Source of the DNA: Salipiger bermudensis HTCC2601
GTDB taxonomy: Bacteria; Pseudomonadota; Alphaproteobacteria; Rhodobacterales; Rhodobacteraceae
Assembly (NCBI RefSeq): GCF_000153725.1
Contig: NZ_DS022276.1
Span: forward strand, 2,497,690 to 2,561,689
Reading direction: 5' to 3'
DNA length: 64,000 bases
Part shown: positions 16,022-28,340 of the stretch, one piece after another
How positions within the stretch are numbered: position 1 is the first letter of the stretch
Layout of the letters: every line of letters starts with the position of its first letter
Translations under genes and position numbers: made by a program
The notes under the pieces: generated by a model
Database searches by the model: none
Seen by the model: the letters and a program-made list of their open reading frames with translations, nothing else
What the model was told of the DNA's origin: nothing

Positions 16022-16040
16022 TGATGCGGCTGTCTCATGA
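16022..16040. promoter_or_regulatory. Predicted LysR box, site 6 (upstream of aldo-keto reductase)
   Basis: TGATGC-N7-TCATGA, one base off the dyad shared with five other promoters in 20-26 kb. It contains T-N11-A and ends 139 bp before the aldo-keto reductase start. The rest of the 15852-16178 intergenic stretch shows no gene. Confidence 0.5.
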
Positions 16041-16178
16041 GTGGATGTCGGAAGGCGCCGGTTATCGGCAGGGGGCAATGCTTCTAGATTGTGGCCAGAC
16101 GGTGCGGGCGCCCCCGGGCAAGTCCCCGTTCCGACCCGCGTTCAGGCCCGGCAGGGCCAGCAAGAAAAGGAGATCACC

Positions 16179-17039
16179 ATGATCCTGCAAGATACCGACA
16201 CCCTTCCGAATGGTGTGGCCGTCCCGAAACTGGCGCTCGGCACCTGGATGATCGACGACGACAAGGTCGCCGACGCGGTCGTCGCTGCCGTCAAGCTCGG
16301 CTATCGCCACATCGACACCGCTCAGGCCTATGGCAACGAGCGCGGCGTGGGCGAAGGCATCCGCGCCTGTGGCGTGGCCCGCGAAGACCTCTTCGTGCAG
16401 ACCAAGCTCGCCGCCGAGATCAAGGATTACGACGGTGCCAAGGCCGGCATCGAAGCCTCGCTCGAGACCCTCGGGCTCGACTATATCGACCTGATGATCA
16501 TCCACAGCCCGCAGCCCTGGGCCGACTGGGCCGGCGAAGACCGCTTCTTCGAGGGCAACCTCGCGGCGTGGAAAGCGCTGGAAGAGGCCGTCGAGGCCGG
16601 CAAGATCCGCGCCATCGGCGTGTCGAATTTCCAGAAGCAGGACCTTGACAACCTGCTGCAGAACGCCGCGACCAAGCCGATGATCAATCAGGTGCTGGCC
16701 CATGTCGGCAACACGCCGTTCGAGCTGATCGACTATGCCAAGTCGAACGGCATGCTGGTCGAGGCCTATTCGCCCATCGCCCACGGCAAGATCCTCGACA
16801 ATGAAGAGGTCGGTGCCATTGCTGCGAAATACGGCGTGAGCATTCCGCAGCTCTGCATCCGCTACGTGCTGCAGCTGGGCCTTCTGGCGCTGCCCAAGAC
16901 CGCCAATCCCGAGCACATGAAGACCAATGCCGACGTGGATTTCGAGATCACCGACGCGGATATGGACGTGCTGAAATCGCTCACCGCCAAGGATTACGGC
17001 GACGCAAGCGCCTTCCCGGTCTACAGCGGCAAGCAGTAA
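16179..17039 (+). CDS. Aldo/keto reductase
   Basis: 286 residues from the ATG at 16179, preceded by AAAGGAG; a longer upstream frame has no ribosome site. The catalytic tetrad is present: Asp and Tyr in DTAQAYGNE, Lys in VQTKLAAE and His in IIHSPQPW. The NADPH-binding tail is LPKTANPEHMKTNADV. Such enzymes reduce aldehydes and ketones with NADPH in the cytosol. The predicted LysR box upstream places it with the oxidoreductase genes at 17-28 kb although an intergenic terminator pair separates them. The substrate is unknown. Confidence 0.93.
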   Translation: MILQDTDTLPNGVAVPKLALGTWMIDDDKVADAVVAAVKLGYRHIDTAQAYGNERGVGEGIRACGVAREDLFVQTKLAAEIKDYDGAKAGIEASLETLGLDYIDLMIIHSPQPWADWAGEDRFFEGNLAAWKALEEAVEAGKIRAIGVSNFQKQDLDNLLQNAATKPMINQVLAHVGNTPFELIDYAKSNGMLVEAYSPIAHGKILDNEEVGAIAAKYGVSIPQLCIRYVLQLGLLALPKTANPEHMKTNADVDFEITDADMDVLKSLTAKDYGDASAFPVYSGKQ

Positions 17040-17062
17040 GCGTCACTTTGAAGACCTGGAAC

Positions 17063-17089
17063 CGGGGCCGCGCTGCGCGGCCCCGTTTT
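17063..17089 (+). terminator. Rho-independent terminator after aldo-keto reductase
   Basis: The 10-bp perfect stem CGGGGCCGCG / CGCGGCCCCG (17063-17072, 17076-17085) has a CTG loop and is followed by TTTT. Confidence 0.9.
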
Positions 17090-17260
17090 CATGTGGAGCG
17101 ATGGCTTCGGCCCGTGGATCGGTCCGCTGCGGATCAGCACGGGCGAAGAATGGTCACCGGCACCGCGCGCCGGGCGCCGGCTGTTTGTCCGCGCGGTCGC
17201 ACATCCGCGCATTGAGACGGGCCATCTTGCCCTCGGGCAGGTGGGCCTGACGCACAAAGA

Positions 17261-17290
17261 AACGGGGCGCGCCGGAAAGGCACGCCCCGT
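17261..17290 (-). terminator. Rho-independent terminator after the molybdenum oxidoreductase gene
   Basis: On the minus strand ACGGGGCG (17290-17283) pairs with CGCCCCGT (17269-17262) and is followed by TTCTTTG, just past the stop codon at 17313. Confidence 0.8.
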
Positions 17291-17312
17291 AAAGCTGGAT
17301 CTCAAGAGCGGA

Positions 17313-19508
17313 TCAGGCGCCGCCGAACTCGTGCTTCGACAGCGGCAGGCTGCGGATGCGCTCGCCGGTCAGCGTTGCCACCGCGTTGACGATGGCGGGG
17401 CCAACGGCCGGCAGGCCGGGTTCGCCGACGCCGCCCATGGGGGCGCCGCTCTCGATGATGCGCACATGCACCTCCGGCATCTGGTCGGGGCGCAGGATCG
17501 GGTAGAGATCGAAGTTGCGCGCCGTGGGCTCGCCGTCCTCGTAGGTCAGCTCTTCGACCAGCGTCTGCGACACGCCGAGCGCGACGGCGGATTGCACCTG
17601 CGCCTCGACGATGGCCGGGTTGACGATCTGGCCGGGGTCGATGGCGACCCAGACCTGATGCACCGCCACTTCGCCACCGTCGAGCGAGACCTCGGCGATC
17701 GCCGCCGCCTCGGAGCCGAAGGGCGAGGCCATGGCGATGCCGCGCGCGCGCTGGCTGCCGTCCTCGGCCTCGAACGGGCCGGGCTGCCAGCCGCCCGAGA
17801 GCTCGCCCACCGCCTCGAGCAGAGTGCTCAGGCGCTGGTTGTCGGTGAGCAGCGCGCGGCGCATCTCGAACGGGTCCTGACCGGCGGCGCCGGCGATCTC
17901 GTCGAGAAAGCCCTCGTACATGAAATCATGCATCGAGTGGCCGACCGCGCGCCAGTAGCCGATCACCGCCGGGTTGGGGTGGAAGATCTGGCCGACATGG
18001 CTGTTGGCGATGGCGTAGCTCTTGCCCGAGATGCCCTCGGTCGCCGAGGGGTCGCTGCCCACCGGCGCGTCGTACCAGCGCCCGGTCGGGCCCTCGCCAA
18101 CGACCTCGACCGACAGCGCGGTGGGGCCGTCGGGACCGATCGCGCCACGGAAGCGCGCAAGGCCCAGCGGGCGCGGTGCATCGCGCAGGAAGTCTTCCTC
18201 GCGGGTCCAGATCAGCTTGACGGGCTGGCCCACGGCCTTGGCCAGCGCGATGGCCTGCGGGAACGGGTTCGAAGTGGCGTAGAGGAAGTGCCGACCGAAG
18301 AAGCCGCCGAGCATCTGCGAGTGGATGCTGACCTGCGAGGGATCGAGCCCGGCGACCTGCGCCGCAGTGCCCTGGAACATCTCGGGTGCCTGACAGGAAG
18401 TCCAGACCTCGAGCGTGCCGTCGTCGTTGAAGCGCGCGGTGGCCGAGGGCGGCTCGAGCTGGCCATGCACCACGAAGGGCGCGTCGTAGATCGCCTCGAT
18501 CACCGTGTCGGCGCTTTCGAGGGCCGAGGCGGCATCGCCCTTGGCTTCGACCTCGACGATCTCGCCTTTCTTGCCGGCCAGCGTGTCGCGGAACACGTCG
18601 GTCGAGAAATCCGCCGGCATCGGCCATTGCGCCTCGCCCTCGGTCCATTCGACCTCGGCGGCCTCCACGGCGCGGCGGGCCTGCCAGAACTTGCCGGCCA
18701 CCACCGCGACGGCGCCGTCGAGCAGATGCACCGAGTGCACCCCGCGCATCGCCTCGATCTCGGAGAGGTTGCTGACCGAGGCCGGCGTCAGGCCAAGGCG
18801 CGGCGCGTGCTGCACCGCCGCCAGAAGCATTCCGTCGACCTCGACATCGATCGAGTACTTCGCCTGTCCGGTCGACTTGTCGCGCACGTCGAGACGCGGC
18901 ACCGGGGTCTTGATCCAGCGGAACTCGGACGGGTCGCGCAGCGTCACCTCGGCGGGCACCGGCAGGTCCATCGCCACCGCCGCAAGCTCGCCATAGCCGG
19001 CGCGGCGGCCGGAGGCCTCGTGCACGACCATGCCCGGCTCGGTGGTGAGCTCGGAGGCGTCAACGCCCCAGTCCTGCGCCGCGGCCTCGAGGAACATCGC
19101 CCGGGCCGAGGCCCCAAGTTGGCGCATCAGCTCGTAGGAGGTGCGGGTCGACATGCTGCCGCCGGTGATGCGGAAACCGCCCATGACGTCATAGGGCGGG
19201 CCTGCGGGGGCGATCTCGACCGAGAAGTTCTCGGGCGCCAGATCCAGCTCTTCGCCGACCACCTGCGCAAAGGTGGTGTAGATGCCCTGGCCGCCCTCGA
19301 TGAAGGGGCTGAGCAGCTTGGCGGTGCCGTCCTCGTGGATCTCGAGGAAGGCGGGCACGGCGGGACCGGCGGCGGCCTCGGCCTCCTGCGCCTTGGAGGG
19401 GCGCACGGGCAGGGTGGTGGACAGCACCAGCGCGCCGGTGCCGCTCAGGAAGCCGCGGCGCGAGACATTGACCGGCGCCTGCTTGAGGAGTTTCTGCATG
19501 AAGGTCAT
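17313..19508 (-). CDS. Molybdopterin-binding aldehyde/isoquinoline-type oxidoreductase large subunit
   Basis: 731 residues of the xanthine oxidase family, IorB-like. A twin-arginine signal, SRRGFLSGTGALVL (about residues 16-29), predicts export of the folded enzyme to the periplasm. Cofactor and active-site segments include GGFFGRHFLY, GYWRAVGHSMHDF, and GGVGEPGLPAVGP with the catalytic Glu near the C-terminus. It forms an operon with the [2Fe-2S] subunit, 3 bp upstream. No cytochrome subunit gene follows; the next feature is a terminator. Members hydroxylate aldehydes or N-heterocycles; the substrate cannot be read from sequence. Confidence 0.92.
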   Translation of the reverse strand: MTFMQKLLKQAPVNVSRRGFLSGTGALVLSTTLPVRPSKAQEAEAAAGPAVPAFLEIHEDGTAKLLSPFIEGGQGIYTTFAQVVGEELDLAPENFSVEIAPAGPPYDVMGGFRITGGSMSTRTSYELMRQLGASARAMFLEAAAQDWGVDASELTTEPGMVVHEASGRRAGYGELAAVAMDLPVPAEVTLRDPSEFRWIKTPVPRLDVRDKSTGQAKYSIDVEVDGMLLAAVQHAPRLGLTPASVSNLSEIEAMRGVHSVHLLDGAVAVVAGKFWQARRAVEAAEVEWTEGEAQWPMPADFSTDVFRDTLAGKKGEIVEVEAKGDAASALESADTVIEAIYDAPFVVHGQLEPPSATARFNDDGTLEVWTSCQAPEMFQGTAAQVAGLDPSQVSIHSQMLGGFFGRHFLYATSNPFPQAIALAKAVGQPVKLIWTREEDFLRDAPRPLGLARFRGAIGPDGPTALSVEVVGEGPTGRWYDAPVGSDPSATEGISGKSYAIANSHVGQIFHPNPAVIGYWRAVGHSMHDFMYEGFLDEIAGAAGQDPFEMRRALLTDNQRLSTLLEAVGELSGGWQPGPFEAEDGSQRARGIAMASPFGSEAAAIAEVSLDGGEVAVHQVWVAIDPGQIVNPAIVEAQVQSAVALGVSQTLVEELTYEDGEPTARNFDLYPILRPDQMPEVHVRIIESGAPMGGVGEPGLPAVGPAIVNAVATLTGERIRSLPLSKHEFGGA

Positions 19509-19511
19509 GGA

Positions 19512-19958
19512 TCAGGCCTCCGACGCGTCGCGCACGGCGGCGCGGATCTTGTTGTAGGTCCCGCAGCGGCAGAGGTTCACCATCGCGTACTCGATATCCT
19601 CGTCGGTGGGGTTCGGCGTCTCGGTCAGCAGCGCGGTGGCGGCAAGCACCTGGCCCGACTGGCAGTAGCCGCATTGCGGCACCTGGTTGGCGACCCAGGC
19701 CTCGACAACGCGGCGGCCGGTCTCGGTCTCCTCGACGGTCTCGATGGTCTTGATCTCGGCGCCGGTGACGCTTTCTGCCGGGGTCTGGCAGGAGCGGGTG
19801 GGGTAGCCGTCGACAAGCACGGTGCAGGCGCCGCACTGCGCGATGCCGCAGCCATATTTGGTGCCGGTCAGTCCGAGTTCTTCTCGGATGACCCAGAGAA
19901 GCGGGGTGTCGGGATCGACGTCAACGTCGCGGCTTTCGCCGTTGATGGTCAGCTGCAT
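19512..19958 (-). CDS. [2Fe-2S] subunit of the molybdenum oxidoreductase
   Basis: 148 residues from MQLTINGESRDVDV (19958), preceded by AAGGAG; an ATG 16 codons upstream lacks a ribosome site. Both clusters are complete: the plant-type KYGCGIAQCGACTVLVDG and the four-helix-bundle CGYCQSGQV with LCRCGTY. It passes electrons from the molybdenum site to an unknown acceptor. It has no signal of its own, so export would be by hitch-hiking on the twin-arginine large subunit, which is known for this family. Confidence 0.95.
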   Translation of the reverse strand: MQLTINGESRDVDVDPDTPLLWVIREELGLTGTKYGCGIAQCGACTVLVDGYPTRSCQTPAESVTGAEIKTIETVEETETGRRVVEAWVANQVPQCGYCQSGQVLAATALLTETPNPTDEDIEYAMVNLCRCGTYNKIRAAVRDASEA

Positions 19959-20004
19959 GGCTTGGCTCCTTGTCGGACAAAGGACTGCGTGGCTCGGCAT
20001 AATC

Positions 20005-20029
20005 ACCGCTGCCGGGAACCGGCAGCGGT
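20005..20029. other. Perfect 11-bp inverted repeat in the leader of the [2Fe-2S] subunit gene
   Basis: ACCGCTGCCGG-GAA-CCGGCAGCGGT lies about 47 bp before the start codon. It lacks a T-tract on either strand, so it is more likely a leader structure or operator than a terminator. Confidence 0.5.
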
Positions 20030-20106
20030 CAAAATACGTATCTTGAGTATAGCATAATCATCGCTTCATTGGTGCAGCATGGCTATACCGTGATCCGAGA
20101 TAGCCT

Positions 20107-20125
20107 TCATGACAGGCGCTCATGA
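20107..20125. promoter_or_regulatory. Predicted LysR box, site 1 (upstream of [2Fe-2S] subunit)
   Basis: TCATGA-N7-TCATGA, containing TGA-N7-TCA (T-N11-A). It lies 149 bp before the start at 19958. The remaining 20007-20311 stretch shows no gene. Confidence 0.6.
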
Positions 20126-20311
20126 ATGCGCTCCGGCGCGCGCCCAGGCAAGCGAGGCGGAGCCACGATTGACCCTGGGACGGCGAGACGCGATCCGGGA
20201 AAGGCGCAGCCTTCACCGTCGATCATTGCCCCGCCCTGCCGGCACGGCCTCCACCGTCGTGATGGCCGCGGGCGGGAGCCGGGTGGCTCTCGGACCCGCC
20301 GGCTGTGACGG

Positions 20312-21013
20312 TCATTGCGGGGCCAGCGCGTCCGCGCGCGGCAGCACCCGGTGGCGGAGCCAGACGGTGCCGGTGGCCAGCGTTTCGCTTGAGATCAGTT
20401 CGAGCCGGCGCGCAGCGATGGGGCCGTCATGGTCGTAGATCGATGCAACGCCGCTCTGGCCGTCGACCACCGGGTAGATCAGCGTGCTGGTCTCGTCGAT
20501 CAGGTCGGCGGCGAGAAACGCGCCGTTCATCCGGCCCCCGCCCTCGAGCAGCAGGCGGCTCACGCCAAATGCCTCTCCGATGCGGATGAGCGCATCCTCG
20601 AGCTGGTCGCCCTCGGGGCCGGCAAAGATCACCGACACCCCGCGGGCGATCAGCATTTCGACATGCGCGTCCGGGACCTGCTCCGAGAGCACCAGAACGA
20701 GGTGTTCGCCGTCGAGCTCGCCGCTCTCGGGGTGCAGCGTGCCGTGGCGGTCGACGCAGATCGCGAGGGTGGCGCCGGCATGGCTGGCCACGTGGTCGGT
20801 GCGGGACGGCGCGGCGGGCCCGGGCACCGGCGTTTGCGAGGCGATGTAATGCTCCATCGTCCGACGGCCGACGATCCATCCATAGGCCCCAAGCTGGTCG
20901 GCGGCACCGTCGTAGATCTCGAGCAGGCTGTGCGCAGAGCAGGGCCAGCGCTCTGCCAGAAGCCGTCCGTCGAGAGACGTGATCATGTGGCAGATGATGT
21001 GGGGGCGTTGCAT
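20312..21013 (-). CDS. RibD/dihydrofolate reductase-fold NAD(P)H reductase
   Basis: 233 residues with the family opening HIICHMITSLDGRLL, the middle motif GWIVGRRTMEHYI, and the nucleotide-binding part FGVSRLLLEGGGRMNGAFL. Stand-alone RibD C-terminal domains of this size reduce flavin-pathway or other small substrates with NADPH. There are no riboflavin genes nearby. It has its own predicted LysR box 114 bp upstream, which ties it to the oxidoreductase regulon rather than to riboflavin synthesis. Confidence 0.88.
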   Translation of the reverse strand: MQRPHIICHMITSLDGRLLAERWPCSAHSLLEIYDGAADQLGAYGWIVGRRTMEHYIASQTPVPGPAAPSRTDHVASHAGATLAICVDRHGTLHPESGELDGEHLVLVLSEQVPDAHVEMLIARGVSVIFAGPEGDQLEDALIRIGEAFGVSRLLLEGGGRMNGAFLAADLIDETSTLIYPVVDGQSGVASIYDHDGPIAARRLELISSETLATGTVWLRHRVLPRADALAPQ

Positions 21014-21126
21014 TCTGGCGGCCTCTGATCCTGTGGCAGTGTGGGCGTCCGCGTGATGATGCGGCGGCTCGGGCGGACCATAGGCTGTTCCGCGCCCCGC
21101 AGGTATGCCCGACCGGTCGCAGGCAG

Positions 21127-21145
21127 CGATGAACAGGGTTCATCA
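21127..21145. promoter_or_regulatory. Predicted LysR box, site 2 (upstream of RibD-like reductase)
   Basis: CGATGA-N7-TCATCA, containing TGA-N7-TCA. It lies 114 bp before the start at 21013. The 21014-21249 gap has no gene. Confidence 0.55.
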
Positions 21146-21249
21146 AACACGGGCGCAGGGGTTGTGCAGGCAGGGGGGGCGTGGCTCCGGGCCGCCCTCT
21201 GGCGCCCCGGAGCCGGTCTTGGGTCTTTCGCGACCTTCGGGCGGCAGGC

Positions 21250-21645
21250 TCAGCCGTCGTACTGTTCGTCCGAGACCTTCTCCATCCAGGTCACCGGCGA
21301 GCCGTCGATGCTTTCCTGAATGGCGATGTGCGACATCGCGTTCTCCGGCGAGGCGCCGTGCCAGTGCTTTTCACCGGCGGGGAAGAACACCACGTCGCCC
21401 ATGGTCACTTCCTCGATCGGGCCGCCTTCGCGCTGCACCCGGCCGCGGCCGTAGGTGATGATGATGGTCTGGCCGGCGGGGTGGGTGTGCCACGCGGTGC
21501 GGGCGCCGGGCTCAAAGGTTACATGGGCGCCCGAGGTGCGGCCGGGCTCGTCGGCCTGGAACATCATCTCGAGACGGACGGTGCCGGAAAAGGTCTCTTC
21601 CGGGCCCTGTTGCGACGGGTTGCTTCCGCAGCGAATGATTTTCAT
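21250..21645 (-). CDS. Small cytoplasmic cupin
   Basis: 131 residues, a single cupin barrel. Metal ligands are visible in [10 protein letters not shown] (two His) and in the second motif [11 protein letters not shown] related cupin with a signal peptide lies at 25242-25703; both carry HWHGA and end in similar VTWxExVSDExY tails, so they are paralogues. It follows the NAD-binding gene by 29 bp in the same direction. It could be a quercetinase/auxin-binding-type enzyme or a sensor; no specific substrate is indicated. Confidence 0.88.
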
Positions 21646-21674
21646 GGGAGGTCTCCTTCTTCTGGGTCTGCGCC

Positions 21675-22310
21675 TTAGCGCAGTTTATCGAAACGGTAGG
21701 TCAGTGCGGGGCCGCCGGGCTGGACATAGGCCAGTTCGACCGTGGCCATAGCGAAAGGCTCGACATAGCGGCCATTGCGCAGGCCGCCGCAGTCGAGCGG
21801 CTCGAAGCCGATGTCGCGGATCAGGCCGCCGGCGATCTGCTTGGCGCCGTCATCGTCGGCATAGGTCAGCACCTGCGGCACGGGATCCTGCCCCTTGCGG
21901 GCATAGACCGGGGCAAAGCTCTCGGAAGGCGTGGTGTTGAAGCACGAGACCCAGCGCGTCTTGGGCCGCATCCGGGCCAGCTCCTCGGCGCCGGAGGAGG
22001 TGGTGCCGACCACGAGGTCGCGGTCGGAGGTGTCGAGCGGCACGCAGCAGTTCAGCACCACCTTGCCGTTCAGCGGCCCGGCCTGCTCAAGCACATCTTC
22101 GACCCGGCTCCAGTGCACCGCCAGCAGCAGCACGTCGCCGTGGCCCACGGCCTCGGAAACCGAGCCATGCTTGCCGCCGCAGTCCTTCGACAGCCGCTCG
22201 AGCTTGCTGTCGCTGCGCGAGTAGGAAAAGAGCACGTCATGTCCGGCGTCGGCCCAGTGCTTGCCAAGCTTGCCGCCCATCAGTCCCGATCCGAGAATGC
22301 CAATCTTCAT
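21675..22310 (-). CDS. NAD(P)-binding protein, F420-dependent oxidoreductase-like (NpdG type)
   Basis: 211 residues with an N-terminal Rossmann motif [15 protein letters not shown], followed by YSRSDSKLE at the 2'-phosphate-recognition position, which suggests NADPH. Other family segments are [14 protein letters not shown] and [11 protein letters not shown]. Despite the family name, F420 use is not implied in this taxon. It lies between the carboxymuconolactone decarboxylase-like gene (60-bp gap with a GC hairpin at about 22331-22354) and the cupin. Confidence 0.85.
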
Positions 22311-22370
22311 CGTCTGCTCCTTGAACTGCGAGAGGGGCGTCTCCGCCCCCCTCTGTCGTGTGTCCGCGAT

Positions 22371-23132
22371 TTACGAGCCGCGGTTCTCGAACACGTCCTT
22401 GGCAACCGGCATGGCCGAGAACACCTTCGGCCAGCCAGCGTAGAAGGCGAGGTGCGACAGCATCGCGCCGGCCTCTTCCTGGGTCATGCCGTTGTCCATG
22501 GCGCGGTTGAGGTGGAAGGTCATCTGCTCGGGCTGGCCGGCGGCGATGAGCGCCGCCACCGTCACCATGCTGCGGTCGCGCGGCTCGAGTGCCGGGCGGC
22601 GCCACAGGTCGAGGAAGAGCATCTGCTCGGTGGTGTCGACCACGCCCTGGCTCACGTCGCCATAGGTGCTCTGGACAAAGTCCTGACGGCTGGCCTCGGC
22701 CTCTTCGTCATAGCCCAGCAGCTCGGGGTCGACGGCCGGAAGGTCTTCGGCGGTGACACCGCGGGCCTCATAGACCGGGGCCATCGCTTCGGCCGCGGCG
22801 GTGGCGTTGCCCCAGCCGGTGTAGAAGGCGAGGTGGGTGATGGTCTCGGACAGCTCGGCCGGGGTCACGCCCGCATCGAGCGCCAGCTCGACATAGGAGC
22901 CGAGGTTCTCGGTCTCGTGCCGGGTCATCAGCGCCGCGAAGGTGACGAGCGCGCGGTCGCGCATCGACATCTGCTCACCGGACCAGACGTCGCCGATCAG
23001 ACCGTCCGTCGAGTAGGCTTCGAGCGCAGGTGCGACCTGGCCCACGGCGGAGGGCAGGGTGGTCGAGACATCCTGAGCGGAGGCGGTGGTGGCGGCAAGT
23101 GCGAACGCCGAAGCGGCGAAATAGGTCTTCAT
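22371..23132 (-). CDS. Exported tandem carboxymuconolactone decarboxylase-family protein
   Basis: 253 residues with a clear Sec signal (MKTYFAASAFALAATTASAQD). Two CMD domains follow, each with the helix pattern of the family: MRDRALVTFAALMTRHET ... LAFYTGWGNA and RDRSMVTVAALIAAGQPEQ ... LAFYAGWPKV. No CxxC of the AhpD peroxidase type is present, so peroxidase activity is unlikely. It is the first gene of the three-gene unit 23132-21250, with a LysR box 89 bp upstream. Confidence 0.9.
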   Translation of the reverse strand: MKTYFAASAFALAATTASAQDVSTTLPSAVGQVAPALEAYSTDGLIGDVWSGEQMSMRDRALVTFAALMTRHETENLGSYVELALDAGVTPAELSETITHLAFYTGWGNATAAAEAMAPVYEARGVTAEDLPAVDPELLGYDEEAEASRQDFVQSTYGDVSQGVVDTTEQMLFLDLWRRPALEPRDRSMVTVAALIAAGQPEQMTFHLNRAMDNGMTQEEAGAMLSHLAFYAGWPKVFSAMPVAKDVFENRGS

Positions 23133-23220
23133 GACATGGCTCCTCTGTCGGTTTGCAGTGTCTGCCTGACAGATGTGGCGCGCGCTGCCCTTAGGTTAAT
23201 GCCACGTCTGACGATCGCAC

Positions 23221-23239
23221 TCATGATGACGTCTCATCA
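23221..23239. promoter_or_regulatory. Predicted LysR box, site 3 (upstream of CMD-family gene)
   Basis: TCATGA-N7-TCATCA, containing TGA-N7-TCA. It lies 89 bp before the start at 23132 and ends five bases short of the LysR stop codon at 23244. Confidence 0.6.
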
Positions 23240-23243
23240 ATCC

Positions 23244-24140
23244 TCAGCGCCGCTCCCGCAGTGCCGCGAGCACCACCTCGAAGGCCGAGGACGGGCGCTG
23301 ACGGCTGGGATAATAGAGGTGAAAGCCCGGGAAGGAGGGGCAATAGTCGTCGAGGCAGGTCCTCAGCCGTCCGGCCTCGATATGGGGCTGCGCCAGCCGC
23401 TCCGGAACAAGCGCCAGTCCGTGCCCGTCCATTGCCGCGCGCAGCACCGGGTTGATGGTGTTGAAACAGGTCTGGCCCGAGACCTTCACGCGGATCTCGT
23501 TGCCGTCCGCATCCTCGAACTCCCAGGCGTAGAGCGCGCCATGCGTCGACAGCCGCAGGTTCACGCAGCGATGGTCGCTGAGCTCGGTCGGCTCCTGCGG
23601 CACCCCGGCGGCCTCGTAATAGCCCGGCGCGGCAACGCAGATCATGCGCTCGTCGGGGCCGATGCGCATCGAGATCATGCCCTCGCTCACCTGATCGCCG
23701 TAGCGCACCCCGGCGTCGCATTGCGACGAGGCGAGGTCGGTATAGCCGTAATCCATCACGAACTCGACATTCACCGCCGGATGCTCCTTCAGCACCGGCG
23801 AGAGCTTCGGCCAGAGGATCGACTCGATGGCGTATTCCACCGCCACGATGCGCACCGTGCCGGTGGGTTGATCGCGCGAGTCGTTCAGCGCCAGCAGCCG
23901 CGCCTCGATCTTCTCGAAGCACGGGTTGAGCGTGGCAAGCAGATCCTCGCCCTCGAGCGTCGGGGCGACGGAGCGTGTGGTGCGGGTGAGCAGCCGCAGC
24001 CCGAGCCGCTGCTCGAGCCCCTTGATGGCGTGGCTCAGCGCCGATTGCGACACGTTGAGCCGCGCCGCCGCCTTGGTGAAGCTGCGCTCCTCGGCAACCG
24101 CGGCCAGTGCGATGAGGTCGTTGATGTTTTCGCGGATCAT
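23244..24140 (-). CDS. LysR-type regulator of the oxidoreductase cluster
   Basis: 298 residues. The N-terminal winged helix is typical (EERSFTKAAARLNVSQSALSHAIKGLEQRLG), and a periplasmic-binding-type effector domain follows (VRIVAVEYAIESILWPKL ...). It lies in the middle of the gene set whose promoters share the TGA-N7-TCA dyad and is the only regulator gene among them, so it is the best candidate to bind those sites. The effector is unknown; redox or aldehyde signals would fit the target genes. Confidence 0.92.
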   Translation of the reverse strand: MIRENINDLIALAAVAEERSFTKAAARLNVSQSALSHAIKGLEQRLGLRLLTRTTRSVAPTLEGEDLLATLNPCFEKIEARLLALNDSRDQPTGTVRIVAVEYAIESILWPKLSPVLKEHPAVNVEFVMDYGYTDLASSQCDAGVRYGDQVSEGMISMRIGPDERMICVAAPGYYEAAGVPQEPTELSDHRCVNLRLSTHGALYAWEFEDADGNEIRVKVSGQTCFNTINPVLRAAMDGHGLALVPERLAQPHIEAGRLRTCLDDYCPSFPGFHLYYPSRQRPSSAFEVVLAALRERR

Positions 24141-24233
24141 GGTGGAGGGGTCACTGCTGAGGGTCGGAATGGGTGTGTCTCCCCTTACCTATATATGTGC
24201 GAGTTTCATCAAGTCCATTGATTGTCCAATGCC

Positions 24234-25252
24234 CTAATCGAGACGGATCAGACGATCCCGCGAGGCCCCGTCGCGGCGCGGCGAGCGGTTGGTGGTGATG
24301 GCAAAGACGCCGCTTTCCGTAACCAGAACGTCGCGCATCCGTCGCCCGCATCGAAGGCGGTCGAGACGGTGCCATCGGCGTCGACCCCGAGCACGGCACC
24401 GGCGCGCAGACCGGCGAGCAGCAGGCGTTGTCCATCCCAGGCCAGCCCCGACGGCGCCCATGTGCTGCGCCCGGAATGGGCCAGCGGAGCGTGCATCCCG
24501 TCGCCGGTCTCGTCGCCCTGGATCAGTGGCCAGCCGTGGTTGCCGCCCGCCTCGACGCGGTTCAGCTCGTCATGGCCGGACTGGCCGTGCTCGGCGGCAA
24601 AGAGCTGGCCGTCGCTGTCCCACGCGATCCCCTGCGGGTTGCGGTGGCCCAGCGAATAGACCGGCGAGCCGGGGAAGGGGTTGTCGTCGGGGATGGCGCC
24701 ATCGGGCGTCAGGCGCAGGATCTTTCCCGCGAGGCTCTGCATGTCCTGCGGCCGGTCGCGGTTCTCGGTCCAGCCGGTGGTGACGTAGAGCATTCCGTCC
24801 GGGCCAAAGGCCACGCGGCCGCCATTGTAGAGCGGGTGGCCGGGAATGCCGTCCAGCAGAACGCGGGTCTCGACCCAGGCATCACCGCGCCGTTCCACCT
24901 CGATCACCCGGTTCACGCGCGCCTCGGGGGTACCGGTGTGCTGATAGAGCACGACGCGCCCGGTCTCGGCGAAGTCGGGCCGCAGCGCCAGGCCGAGCAG
25001 CCCGCCGCCGCGATGGTTCAGGATCGGCGCGCTTGTCTCGACCGGCAGGCGGGTGAAATCGCCGTCGGCGAAGAGGCCCAGCGTGCCGGCCTTCTCGGTG
25101 ACGTAGAGCGCGCCCGCATGGGCCTCGATGTCCCACGGGTAGTCGAGCCCGTCGAGAACGGTTTCGGCCGCCGCCGCGGGAAACGCGGTGACGGCCGTGA
25201 TCAGCGCGGCCCCGAGGAGGCCGCGCAGTCCGGTGGCGCGATTACTCGCCAT
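24234..25252 (-). pseudogene. Exported PQQ-dependent sugar (glucose/sorbosone) dehydrogenase-like protein, frameshifted near the C-terminus
   Basis: A signal peptide (GAALITAVTAFPAAAA) precedes a six-bladed propeller with family motifs HRGGGLLGLAL, YSLGHRNPQGIAWD and AAEHGQSGHDELN. In the starting frame, homology ends after AFDAG. The expected tail, RMRDVLVTESGVFAI ... DRLIRLD, continues in another frame to 24234. Restoring one G in the G-run at 24344-24346 (C-run on the plus strand) rejoins the frames as DAGRRMRDVL. The cause may be a real mutation or a homopolymer sequencing error. The start overlaps the end of the cupin gene by 11 bp. Confidence 0.85.
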
Positions 25253-25703
25253 TGTACTCTTCGTCGGAGACCAGCTCGCCCCAGGTCACGGCGGAGCCGT
25301 CTTCATTGGCTTGGATGGCGTAGTGTGTGACCGAGGTGGTGTCGGTGGCACCGTGCCAGTGATTGACGCCTTCGGGCGCGAAGACCACGTCGCCGGTGCG
25401 CATGATCTGCTTGGGCTGGCCTTCTTCCTGGTACCATCCGGTGCCGGCGGTCACGACGAGATACTGACCGATCGGGTGGGTGTGCCAAGCCGAGCGCGCG
25501 CCGGGCATGAAGGTGACCTCGCCGGCGCTGACATCGTTCATGTTGGGGCCGAAGACCGGCGCCACGAAGACGGTGCCGGTGAAGGTTTCCTCGCTGCCGA
25601 TCTGGCCGCCGCGCTCGAGTCCGGTGGTCTGGGACATCTCCTGCGCGAACGCGGCAGGGGCGGTTGCGAGCACGAGGGCGGCTGCGGTGAGGGTGCGTGT
25701 CAT
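25242..25703 (-). CDS. Exported cupin-domain protein
   Basis: 153 residues with a Sec signal (TLTAAALVLATAPAAFAQE). The cupin motifs are ARSAWHTHPIGQYLVV and EGVNHWHGATDTT. It is first in a two-gene unit with the sugar dehydrogenase gene, whose ATG lies inside its last codons. Two notable promoter elements lie upstream: an 18-bp palindrome (25770-25787) and LysR box 4. Its paralogue at 21250-21645 lacks a signal, so the cluster has a periplasmic and a cytoplasmic version. Confidence 0.9.
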   Translation of the reverse strand: MTRTLTAAALVLATAPAAFAQEMSQTTGLERGGQIGSEETFTGTVFVAPVFGPNMNDVSAGEVTFMPGARSAWHTHPIGQYLVVTAGTGWYQEEGQPKQIMRTGDVVFAPEGVNHWHGATDTTSVTHYAIQANEDGSAVTWGELVSDEEYNGE

Positions 25704-25769
25704 GTCTGGTCGTCTCCGTATGGTTGCGAGAGGCGGCCGGCTGGCCTGGAGCCGGGCAGCACCCGGTCT

Positions 25770-25787
25770 CTTACCTTAGGAGGTAAG
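25770..25787. promoter_or_regulatory. 18-bp perfect palindrome, possible second operator
   Basis: CTTACCT-TAGG-AGGTAAG lies 67 bp upstream of the exported cupin start, between it and LysR box 4. The short-spaced dyad resembles MerR-type operators in form; no MerR gene is in the window. Confidence 0.45.
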
Positions 25788-25827
25788 TGAGGATGGCGAC
25801 AGGATAATGCCGATCAGGCGGTAACGC

Positions 25828-25846
25828 TCATGAGGCCCCCTCATGA
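25828..25846. promoter_or_regulatory. Predicted LysR box, site 4 (upstream of exported cupin)
   Basis: TCATGA-N7-TCATGA, 125 bp before the start at 25703. Confidence 0.6.
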
Positions 25847-25919
25847 GCCGGCGTCGTGAGCCGGAGGCGAGGAGAGGCGCGCCGCAACGCGCGCTGTGCT
25901 AGGATGGTTCCTGCGGGAT

Positions 25920-25938
25920 TGATGATCACCGCTCATGG
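25920..25938. promoter_or_regulatory. Predicted LysR box, site 5 (upstream of the cyclophilin-like gene)
   Basis: TGATGA-N7-TCATGG, 119 bp before the start at 26057. The divergent intergenic region 25704-26056 thus carries two boxes, one facing each transcription unit, and no gene. Confidence 0.58.
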
Positions 25939-26056
25939 GAGGGAGAAATATGCAGGGGCTAAAGATTCTGCGCCGCCCGGTTAGATATCGTCTCATTCAA
26001 GGGGCGGGACCGCCGCCTCACCCGTGCAAGACCGCCTCGCAAGGAGGACGACCGCA

Positions 26057-26410
26057 ATGACGAAGATCACCGTAACCGTCGGAGAAACGCAGCTTCAGGC
26101 CACGCTCGACGACACGCCCGCCGGGCGCGATTTCGCAGCGATGCTGCCGCTGGAGCTGCGCCTCAGCGATTATCACGGCATCGAGAAGGTCGCGGACCTG
26201 CCGCGCAAGCTCGACACCACCGATGCGCCAGCGCGCTATGCCGCCAAGGCTGGCGACATCACGCTCTACGCGCCGTGGGGCAACATGGCGATCTTCTACA
26301 AGCCGTTCCAGGCGGCCAGCGGGCTGGTGCGTCTGGGGGCCTTCGACGGCCCGATCGACGCCCTGCTGCAGGACGGCGCCTTCCCGGCGCGCTTCGCACT
26401 GGCGGACTGA
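26057..26410 (+). CDS. Cyclophilin-like fold protein
   Basis: 117 residues from the ATG at 26057, preceded by AAGGAGG. The sequence ITVTVGETQLQATLDDTPAGRDFAAMLPLELRLSDYHG and the ITLYAPWGNMAIFYKPF segment match the bacterial cyclophilin-like family often found beside aldo-keto reductases and SDRs. It lacks the residues of a proline isomerase active site as far as I can tell, so catalysis is doubtful. It is first of the plus-strand set 26057-28340. Confidence 0.82.
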   Translation: MTKITVTVGETQLQATLDDTPAGRDFAAMLPLELRLSDYHGIEKVADLPRKLDTTDAPARYAAKAGDITLYAPWGNMAIFYKPFQAASGLVRLGAFDGPIDALLQDGAFPARFALAD

Positions 26411-26524: not shown

Positions 26525-27271
26525 ATGACCGAGAACATCGCAGGAAAAGTCGTCGTCATCACCGGTGCCTCGAGCGGCATGGGCGAAGCCACCGCCCGCT
26601 CGCTGGCCGAGCAGGGCGCCAAGGTGGTGCTGGGCGCGCGCCGGGCCGACCGGCTCGAGAGCATCGTCGCGGACATCAAGGCCGAGGGTGGCGAGGCCAT
26701 CGCCAAGGCCACCGACGTGACCAAGCGCGAAGAGGTGCAGGCGCTGGTCGACACCGCCAAGCAGACCTTCGGCACCGTCGACGTGATCTTCAACAATGCC
26801 GGCCTGATGCCGCTGTCGATGCTGGCGAGCCAGAAGGTCGACGAGTGGGAGCAGATGATCGACGTGAACCTCAAGGGCACGCTCTACGGCATTTCGGCCG
26901 TTCTGCCGATTTTCCAAGAGCAGAAATCCGGCCAGGTGATCAACGTCTCGTCGGTCTACGGGCACAAGACGGTGCCCACGGGCGCAGTCTACTGCGCCAC
27001 CAAGTACGCCGTGCGCTCGCTCTCCGAGGGGCTGCGCCAGGAGGTGAAGGATTACAACGTGCGCGTCGCCGTGCTGTCACCGGGCGCCGTCAACACCGAG
27101 CTGACCAGCCACATCACCGAGGAAGGCACCGGCGACCAGGTTCGTGACTTCGTCAAGCAGATCGCCATCCCGGCCTCGACCATGGCAGACATGGTGAGCT
27201 TCGCGATCTCGCAGCCCGAGAATGTCGACGTGAACGAGATCCTGTTCCGCCCGACCGTCCAGCCCGAGTAA
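26525..27271 (+). CDS. Short-chain dehydrogenase/reductase
   Basis: 248 residues from the ATG at 26525 (AAGGAG nearby). It is a classical SDR: cofactor motif [16 protein letters not shown] in [10 protein letters not shown], catalytic Ser in VINVSSVYG and YxxxK in YCATKYA. ARRADR after the second strand favours NADPH. It is closest in style to YdfG/COG4221 oxidoreductases. The gap to the preceding gene is 114 bp with no promoter dyad seen, so co-transcription from site 5 is likely. Confidence 0.93.
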
Positions 27272-27389: not shown

Positions 27390-28340
27390 ATGCCTGCCAA
27401 CGACTACATCTTCGAGCTTTCTGAAAACGTCACTCGCACCCCGGTCTCGTTCGAGACCCGCTATGGTCTCGGCCTTTCCGCCGACCTCTACCGCCCGGCG
27501 GATTTCGACGAGAGCAAGCAGTACCCGGCGCTCATCGTCGGCGCGCCCTATGGCGGCGTCAAGGAGCAGGGCCCCGGCATCTATGCCAATGAACTGGCCC
27601 AGAAGGGTTATGTCGTGCTCACTTTCGATCCGGCCTATAACGGTGCCTCGGAAGGCTACCCGCATCACCTCTCCTCGCCCGACCAGATGGTCGAGGACTT
27701 CATGGCCGGCGTCGACTTCCTCGGCACCCGCCCCTTCGTCTCGCGCGAGAAGATCGGCGCGATCGGCATCTGCGGCTCGGGCGGCTTCGCGCTGTCGGCG
27801 GCCAAGGTCGACCCGCGCATCAAGGCCGTGGCCACCGTCTCGATGTACGACATCAGCCGGATGCAGAAGAACGGCATGAACGACAGCATGAGCGATGAAG
27901 ATCGCCTTGCCACGCTCAAGACCCTCGCCGAACAGCGCTGGGCGGATTTCGAGACCGGCGAGCCGGCGCTCACCGGTCGCGGCGCGCCGCTCGAGTGGGA
28001 TGCCGAGGCGAACCCTGTGGGTGCGGAATTCGGCTCGTTCTACTCGCGTCCGCGTGGCTATCACCCGCGCTCGATCACGCAGTTCACCATGACCTCCACG
28101 CCGAGCTGGATGAACTTTGCGCTGCTGCAGGACCTCGACTGGCTCGCGGGCCGTCCGATCCTGCTGGTTGCCGGCGACGAGGCGCACTCGCTGTATTTCT
28201 CGGAAGACGTCTACAAGGACGCGCCCGAGCCGAAGGAACTCTACCTCGTCGAGGGCTCGAACCACGTCGATCTCTACGACAAGGTCGAGAAGATTCCCTT
28301 CGCCAAGATCGAGAGCTTCTTCGCCGACGCGCTGAAGTAA
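27390..28340 (+). CDS. Alpha/beta hydrolase (YcjY/dienelactone hydrolase-like)
   Basis: 316 residues. The nucleophile elbow reads IGICGSGGFAL; either the Cys (as in dienelactone hydrolase) or the Ser could be the nucleophile. The C-terminal half offers LLVAGDEAHS (acid region) and EGSNHVDLYD (His). No signal peptide is present. It closes the plus-strand set and is followed by a strong terminator. The substrate is unknown. Confidence 0.9.
   Translation: MPANDYIFELSENVTRTPVSFETRYGLGLSADLYRPADFDESKQYPALIVGAPYGGVKEQGPGIYANELAQKGYVVLTFDPAYNGASEGYPHHLSSPDQMVEDFMAGVDFLGTRPFVSREKIGAIGICGSGGFALSAAKVDPRIKAVATVSMYDISRMQKNGMNDSMSDEDRLATLKTLAEQRWADFETGEPALTGRGAPLEWDAEANPVGAEFGSFYSRPRGYHPRSITQFTMTSTPSWMNFALLQDLDWLAGRPILLVAGDEAHSLYFSEDVYKDAPEPKELYLVEGSNHVDLYDKVEKIPFAKIESFFADALK

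Follow-up and report, generated by a model that had tools for sequence, protein, structure and literature searches.

The question raised by this locus is whether a set of near-identical dyads of the form ATGA-N7-TCAT, found in a 64,000-nucleotide stretch of the Salipiger bermudensis HTCC2601 genome (contig NZ_DS022276.1; the whole stretch is referred to below as the window), are operators, and if so, of which regulator and with what effect. An initial annotation, made from the sequence alone, had read six such dyads as a putative regulon of the LysR-type transcriptional regulator (LTTR) encoded at 23244-24140. On the present evidence we judge the cluster to be a genuine LysR regulon; the clustering of the sites and their conservation in orthologous promoters support the earlier reading, which needs extending by a seventh, probably autoregulatory site, by a shared promoter layout and by three or four possible distal targets. 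The sites are very probably operators of a LysR protein, most likely that of 23244-24140, which is predicted to activate the target genes and to repress lysR.

Probable operator sites in the window and in the genome

The six dyads were confirmed on the window sequence at the positions first reported (Table 1). As claimed, five match ATGA-N7-TCAT exactly and one, before the aldo-keto reductase (AKR) gene, has a single mismatch (ATGC...TCAT), and every site contains T-N11-A. The placement upstream of start codons also stood, but the gap, given as 89-149 bases, is 88-148 by coordinates, with the AKR start set at 16179. The LysR gene had been called the sole regulator within the set, and this holds among the profiled genes of the stretch.

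The expected rarity of the motif in 64 kb was borne out, as 100 dinucleotide shuffles of the window gave a mean of 0.39 exact dyads and 3 at most, against 5 seen. The initial annotation had named a random spread of the motif over the genome as evidence against a regulon; exact sites are clustered instead. Of the 19 exact dyads in the genome (six contigs, 5,479,341 bp), five fall between window positions 20109 and 25936 (Poisson P = 6e-12 for at least five in 5.83 kb, the other 14 genomic dyads being taken as background). The longer pattern TSATGA-N7-TCATSA occurs 18 times in the genome with at most one mismatch, seven of these in the cluster; when three mismatches are allowed, the window shows no enrichment (33 seen, 45.5 expected). 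The reversed-pattern control on the genome (one match) is a weak control. Raw genome-wide dyad totals were rejected as a test of co-occurrence, the other 148 genomes of the family sample holding 1 to 63 exact dyads each; the signal of the sites is their clustering and promoter position, not the raw genome total.

A matrix built from the sites of other species only gives the six window sites the top six scores (24.1-31.5 bits), the next-best window score being 14.2 bits and that of the site before lysR 11.8 bits. The latter, a one-mismatch core at 24193-24211, had gone unnoticed in the initial annotation, as had a partial copy of the site (25841-25859) overlapping the operator at 25828. The exported-cupin operator is joined by a third half-site at the same seven-base spacing (TCATGA-N7-TCATGA-N7-TCGTGA), and window positions 25828-25859 may hold overlapping sites.

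Conservation in related loci

One scan of genome contigs yielded 55 loci, with titles mostly from Rhodobacterales, 53 of which encode a LysR of at least 53% identity. Their 1.03 Mb contain 167 exact dyads; 95 other dyads composed of those letters (spacers 4-11) reach 20 occurrences at most. Of the 167, 151 are located no more than 350 bp upstream of a member of the 13 cluster families, in regions amounting to 11.1% of the DNA, and the remaining 16 lie outside them. Exact sites not before the listed families, which are possible further targets, were seen in loci L044 (5766-6737), L049 (14111, 15393), L070 (4868, 5932) and L090 (2184, 5354); in L044, two exact sites flank a 39% LysR that adjoins a hydrolase gene.

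Loss of the sites in orthologous promoters, also named beforehand as a result that would speak against the regulon, was not the outcome, since sites are kept there. The gene-by-gene count left out matches below 50% identity, matches that began after query residue 40 and regions of upstream DNA shorter than 150 bp. An exact site precedes cupX in 33/34 cases and the carboxymuconolactone-decarboxylase-family (CMD) gene in 38/43 (6/6 where it is first, 32/37 where it closely follows lysR). For the other targets, first and internal positions can be compared: 10/12 and 0/1 for the [2Fe-2S] subunit (FeS), 8/8 and 0/4 for the RibD-like gene, 4/4 and 1/39 for the F420-like gene, 30/42 and 0/1 for the cyclophilin-like gene, and 15/26 (24/26 allowing one mismatch) and 0/2 for AKR. 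Few exact sites were found before the glucose/sorbosone dehydrogenase-like (GSDH; 1/16), short-chain dehydrogenase (SDR; 0/9), molybdopterin subunit (0/10) and cupA (1/46) genes, as expected because these are mostly internal. Control stretches of 350 bp of coding sequence contained the exact site in 0/339 cases and a one-mismatch site in 8/339. The sites follow promoters, being mostly present when a gene is first and nearly always absent when it is internal.

The same is seen where the genes are dispersed. In a draft genome (G138), lysR, CMD and cupA lie on contig 3, AKR on contig 1, and the FeS/molybdopterin, RibD-like, GSDH/cupX and SDR genes on contig 58; an exact site stands upstream of all seven units, lysR included, with a TA at the expected distance in 5/7. 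This genome also encodes a 53% LysR paralogue (contig 22). Among 149 genomes, AKR orthologues (E <= 1e-110) occur in four, exactly those that encode a LysR with at least 79% identity, and CMD orthologues (E <= 1e-50) in seven. In genomes G128 and G137, CMD and both cupins follow a hydrolase gene next to a 38-39% LysR, without an exact dyad of their own, and a single dyad lies between that lysR and the hydrolase gene. On a plasmid of Salipiger abyssi (pPABY4, locus L163), three exact sites accompany LysR, CMD, reductase-like and cupin genes, and an IS30 transposase adjoins them; a plasmid search with the FeS promoter DNA as query gave no match.

A shared promoter layout

Upstream alignments that were not selected on the site show conserved half-sites with a freer spacer, then, some 20 bases on, a conserved block, and finally a -10-like block. 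Among 139 exact sites before target genes (mismatch sites left out), TA is found at offsets 22-24 in 100 (82 at offset 24) and at offsets 45-47 in 72. The element GSATTATSC, matched at 7/9 or better, stands at offset 20 in 81 of them, the next commonest offset accounting for 5; by family, it was found at AKR in 13/15, CMD in 27/38, cupX in 22/33 and the cyclophilin-like gene in 16/30. Counted from the predicted -10, the dyad is centred at about -65 and the element lies around -35. The target promoters, with their putative starts, fit the layout of a LysR-activated promoter, namely a site at about -65, a conserved element in the -35 region, and a -10.

According to PMC5603801 and PMC12016517, LTTR regulatory and activation sites are likewise usually found at about -65 and -35, and the activators PnpM/PnpR (PMC5603801) and BhbR1 (PMC12016517) have a T-N11-A dyad at about -65 with a second contact at about -35. 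Unlike in those systems, here one operator stands before six or more separate units. In addition, PMC5603801 states that no conserved motif has been identified for the LTTR activation binding site, whereas the -35-region element described here has a conserved sequence.

The mechanism that we infer, from binding and start sites to tetramer, inducer and activation, would be as follows. A LysR tetramer would occupy the T-N11-A site centred at about -65 of each target, its second dimer lying on the element over the -35 region, and an inducer would shift the complex, so that transcription of the target is activated.

The promoter of lysR

At lysR, LysR would instead bind a weaker site. The degenerate seventh dyad lies between the predicted -35 and -10 of the gene, and autorepression is therefore predicted. 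Of the 53 lysR genes, 49 have a site with no more than one mismatch in the 350 bp upstream (exact in 16), and in 44 such a site lies 20-85 bp upstream. Most LTTRs repress their own gene, according to PMC5603801 and PMC12016517.

The element GSATTATSC, first derived from the target promoters and afterwards counted at the lysR promoters, was also found inverted beside the lysR site: at offset 9 in 27 of the 44 (the next commonest offset accounting for 3) and at offsets 8-10 in 30, including 23 of the 32 with a same-direction upstream neighbour. Because it is kept with such neighbours, it is not merely the -35 of a divergent promoter, and because at lysR it is located upstream of the predicted -35 of lysR itself, it is more than a core -35 hexamer. 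The element thus stands 20 bases past the operator at the targets, versus 9 and in the opposite orientation at lysR, and the difference of 11 bases is about one helical turn.

The one unusual feature of the regulon is its second element, which its promoters share but which is displaced by one turn at lysR. We tentatively propose, although the odds are somewhat against it, that the activation site of this LysR clade is conserved in sequence, and that the spacing (20 or 9 bases) may decide between activation and autorepression. The regulon is otherwise of a known type, its most novel part being that the element recurs at lysR roughly one turn nearer to the site. A literature search found no publication on this regulon or its motif, but most subscription papers were outside its coverage, so that absence from print is not shown.

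Possible targets outside the cluster

The pattern ATGA-N7-TCAT-N23-TA occurs eight times in the genome with no mismatch, four times in the cluster and four elsewhere; with one mismatch allowed there are 24 occurrences in all, versus 6 for the reversed control. At a TA frequency of 1.0%, the 4 hits in 28 distal orientations correspond to a binomial P = 1.7e-4, a statistic computed after the pattern had been seen. The four distal promoters (Table 1) fit the core of the shared layout, and three or four of the genes are possible additional targets. The weakest is the 2-hydroxyacid dehydrogenase gene, where a TTGACA-like promoter lies further downstream of the site. A counterpart of the hydrolase site is present in a genome of the same genus (G088), near a 52% LysR, and the site of the major facilitator superfamily (MFS) transporter lies near the 54% LysR paralogue of the HTCC2601 genome; these two sites may answer to paralogous LysRs. 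Distal dyads within predicted genes (L020 9672, L022, L024, L031, L032, L037) were counted as background. A Mutator-family transposase gene (L020 5068-6276) adjoins the distal hydrolase target.

The wider LysR family

The LysR of the window has an N-terminal HTH_1 domain (PF00126, 78.6 bits) and a C-terminal LysR substrate-binding domain (PF03466, 111.5 bits), and scores below the cutoff of every NCBIfam model among the 25 shown. The nearest named models are those of Escherichia coli YafC (equivalog NF040888) and GcvA (subfamily NF008352); with 132.3 bits versus a required 470 and 129.5 versus 288, respectively, the protein falls far short of both cutoffs. The best match among solved structures is a distant relative, a Neisseria LysR protein (PDB 3hhg, E 8.1e-25), which we take to be CrgA. 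Cysteines 74, 141, 168, 192 and 262 are invariant in 51/51 LysR orthologues, all of them close relatives; they were rejected as proof of thiol sensing, as in 62 wider relatives just C192 (61) and C267 (47) are common.

Of 398 genomes sampled from the phylum, 57 encode a LysR relative (E <= 1e-75), as do 579 plasmid records (E <= 1e-60). In a comparison of 2,816 dyads, ATGA-N7-TCAT proved the commonest before 64 LysR genes with at least 40% identity (24/64), followed by ATTA-N7-TAAT (12); composition shuffles gave 0.3%. Relatives L105, L117, L123, L128 and L145 have ATTA-N7-TAAT-like dyads instead, 34 of 62 relatives have neither dyad near the start, and 12.9 kb of a Sinorhizobium meliloti locus contain no such dyad. 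Residue 37, in the recognition helix, is His in 19/19 ATGA-dyad proteins (window included) and Gln in 4/6 of the ATTA type, a comparison of few sequences that left out proteins having both dyads (4) or neither of them (34).

An earlier count of 118 orientations in the wider family included the G138 and G088 loci, which hold an orthologous regulon; the recount, from which both and the window genome's own locus were dropped, covers 59 loci, 40 sites and 80 orientations. TA occurs at offset 23 in 25 orientations (mean elsewhere 3.1), and at offsets 22-24 in at least one orientation for 28 of the 40 sites. In the 80 orientations, the five most frequent offsets of GSATTATSC do not include 20, and the TA positions alone, not the full nine-base element, look like the family-wide feature.

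Function and alternative explanations

The gene set comprises AKR, SDR, a molybdopterin/[2Fe-2S] oxidoreductase, a RibD-like reductase, CMD and cupins. From it we put at about even the chance that the regulon removes reactive carbonyls or other electrophiles, because it combines several reductases with an oxidoreductase and a CMD protein, and because a carbonyl-responsive regulon of Bacillus subtilis, that of AdhR/NmlR, also has a CMD-family gene and a dehydrogenase; as described in PMC4776306, it differs in its MerR-family regulator and in its other genes. A CMD-family-like protein, RclX, takes part in the hypochlorite response, according to PMC7950407. The same regulon could, somewhat less probably, serve the breakdown of one compound, such as a cyanohydrin or an N-heterocycle. 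Both cupins score above the mandelonitrile lyase cutoff, and a molybdopterin oxidoreductase pair is present; however, we recognised no complete pathway in the profiled genes, and in our judgement the mix of several reductases looks like defence.

As to the direction of control, which sequence alone cannot give, LysR might chiefly repress the cluster. We regard this as unlikely, considering that the target dyads are centred at about -65 from the predicted start, the place of the regulatory site in LTTR-activated promoters (PMC5603801 and PMC12016517), and that a dyad lies between -35 and -10 at lysR only.

Slightly less likely still is control of the sites by a paralogous LysR with the same operator, for example the 54% protein at C5:168505, alone or with the window LysR. 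The operator is common to LysR relatives down to about 38% identity, relatives of 38-58% identity adjoin the same dyad, and the distal MFS site and the G088 hydrolase counterpart lie near such proteins, so that the window LysR need not be the only one in control. Nevertheless, AKR orthologues track the close LysR orthologue and not the paralogues (4/149), while 15/149 genomes hold some relative at E <= 1e-60, and the degenerate site is kept before 49/53 lysR genes.

That the sites are chance occurrences or a dispersed repeat is extremely improbable, for although exact dyads outside the cluster are at a level similar to other genomes, the window shuffles, 55-locus counts, first-versus-internal contrast, matrix ranking and upstream placement all contradict it, and the seven spacer letters vary between copies, unlike in a recent repeat.

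Some observations weigh against a regulon of the window LysR. Locus L089 has a LysR (75%) but neither an exact site nor other cluster genes; the exact site is present in just 15/26 AKR and 30/42 cyclophilin-like first positions; GSATTATSC is found at 0/10 FeS, 2/8 RibD-like and 1/5 F420-like promoters; the loci are related, so that the counts are of non-independent events; and the genome itself encodes the same-operator relative at C5:168505. We nevertheless prefer control by the LysR of 23244-24140 because of the clustering, the other-species matrix, the contrast between first and internal genes, the targets in trans in G138, the co-occurrence of AKR and LysR, the -65/-35/-10 layout, and the same dyad being the commonest upstream of LysR relatives. 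Site placement, conservation, promoter tracking and the shared layout rest on the analysis itself.

Genes and features of the cluster

The units with a site are AKR; [2Fe-2S] and molybdopterin subunits; RibD-like; CMD, F420/NADP reductase-like and cupin; exported cupin, then GSDH-like and lysR; and cyclophilin-like, then SDR and hydrolase. From their spacing, these units are putative operons. In the GSDH-like gene, protein-like sequence goes on in another frame near 24345, toward the 3' end; the gene is probably frameshifted there, sequencing error and real loss not being distinguishable.

Table 1. Predicted features of the cluster and candidate distal targets (window positions, unless a contig is given).
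Feature	Position	Strand	Basis or remark
Operator before AKR	16022..16040	+	ATGC-N7-TCAT, one mismatch; sequence scan and matrix
AKR -35-region element GGTTATCGG	16060-16068	+	predicted
AKR -10-like CTAGAT	16084-16089	+	predicted
AKR, target	16179..17039	+	PF00248
Molybdopterin-binding oxidoreductase subunit, internal gene of target unit	17313..19508	-	PF02738/PF20256
[2Fe-2S] subunit (FeS), target, first gene	19512..19958	-	PF01799/PF00111
Operator before [2Fe-2S] subunit	20107..20125	-	exact dyad; TA at N23 past dyad
RibD C-terminal-domain reductase-like gene, target	20312..21013	-	PF01872
Operator before RibD-like gene	21127..21145	-	exact dyad; TA at N23
Cupin, mandelonitrile-lyase type, third gene behind CMD	21250..21645	-	188.5 bits, cutoff 140
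F420/NADP reductase-like gene, second behind CMD	21675..22310	-	PF03807
CMD, target, first gene	22371..23132	-	PF02627
CMD element GCATTAACC	23194-23202	-	8/9 to GSATTATSC
Operator before CMD	23221..23239	-	exact dyad
LysR-type regulator	23244..24140	-	PF00126 + PF03466
lysR promoter, TGGACT (24212-24217), 16 bases, TATATA (24190-24195)	24190..24217	-	predicted
Degenerate seventh site	24193-24211		between predicted -35 and -10 of lysR
Element TGATTGTCC at lysR	24219..24227	+	7/9 to GSATTATSC, 9 bases from lysR site
GSDH-like gene	24248..25252	-	PF07995
Exported cupin, mandelonitrile-lyase type, target	25242..25703	-	155.3 bits, cutoff 140
Exported-cupin element GCATTATCC	25802-25810	-	
Operator before exported cupin	25828..25846	-	exact dyad
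Operator before cyclophilin-like gene	25920..25938	+	exact dyad; TA at N23
-10-like TTAGAT of cyclophilin-like gene	25981-25986	+	predicted
Cyclophilin-like gene, target	26057..26410	+	PF18050
SDR behind cyclophilin-like gene	26525..27271	+	PF00106
Alpha/beta hydrolase (S15/DLH-like), possibly end of cyclophilin-like unit	27390..28340	+	PF02129, PF01738
Distal candidate target, alpha/beta hydrolase	C6:331636		ATGA-N7-TCAT-N23-TA
Distal candidate target, SDR	C5:68540		ATGA-N7-TCAT-N23-TA
Distal candidate target, 2-hydroxyacid dehydrogenase	C5:75612		ATGA-N7-TCAT-N23-TA
Distal candidate target, MFS transporter	C5:167448		ATGA-N7-TCAT-N23-TA

Significance

An unnamed LysR thus gains a predicted regulatory role, with named targets, an operator definition and a promoter layout. 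In related bacteria, the sites recur ahead of these same genes, also when the genes have been relocated. The fixed second element makes these promoters a natural set on spacing and on the choice of LysR between activation and repression.

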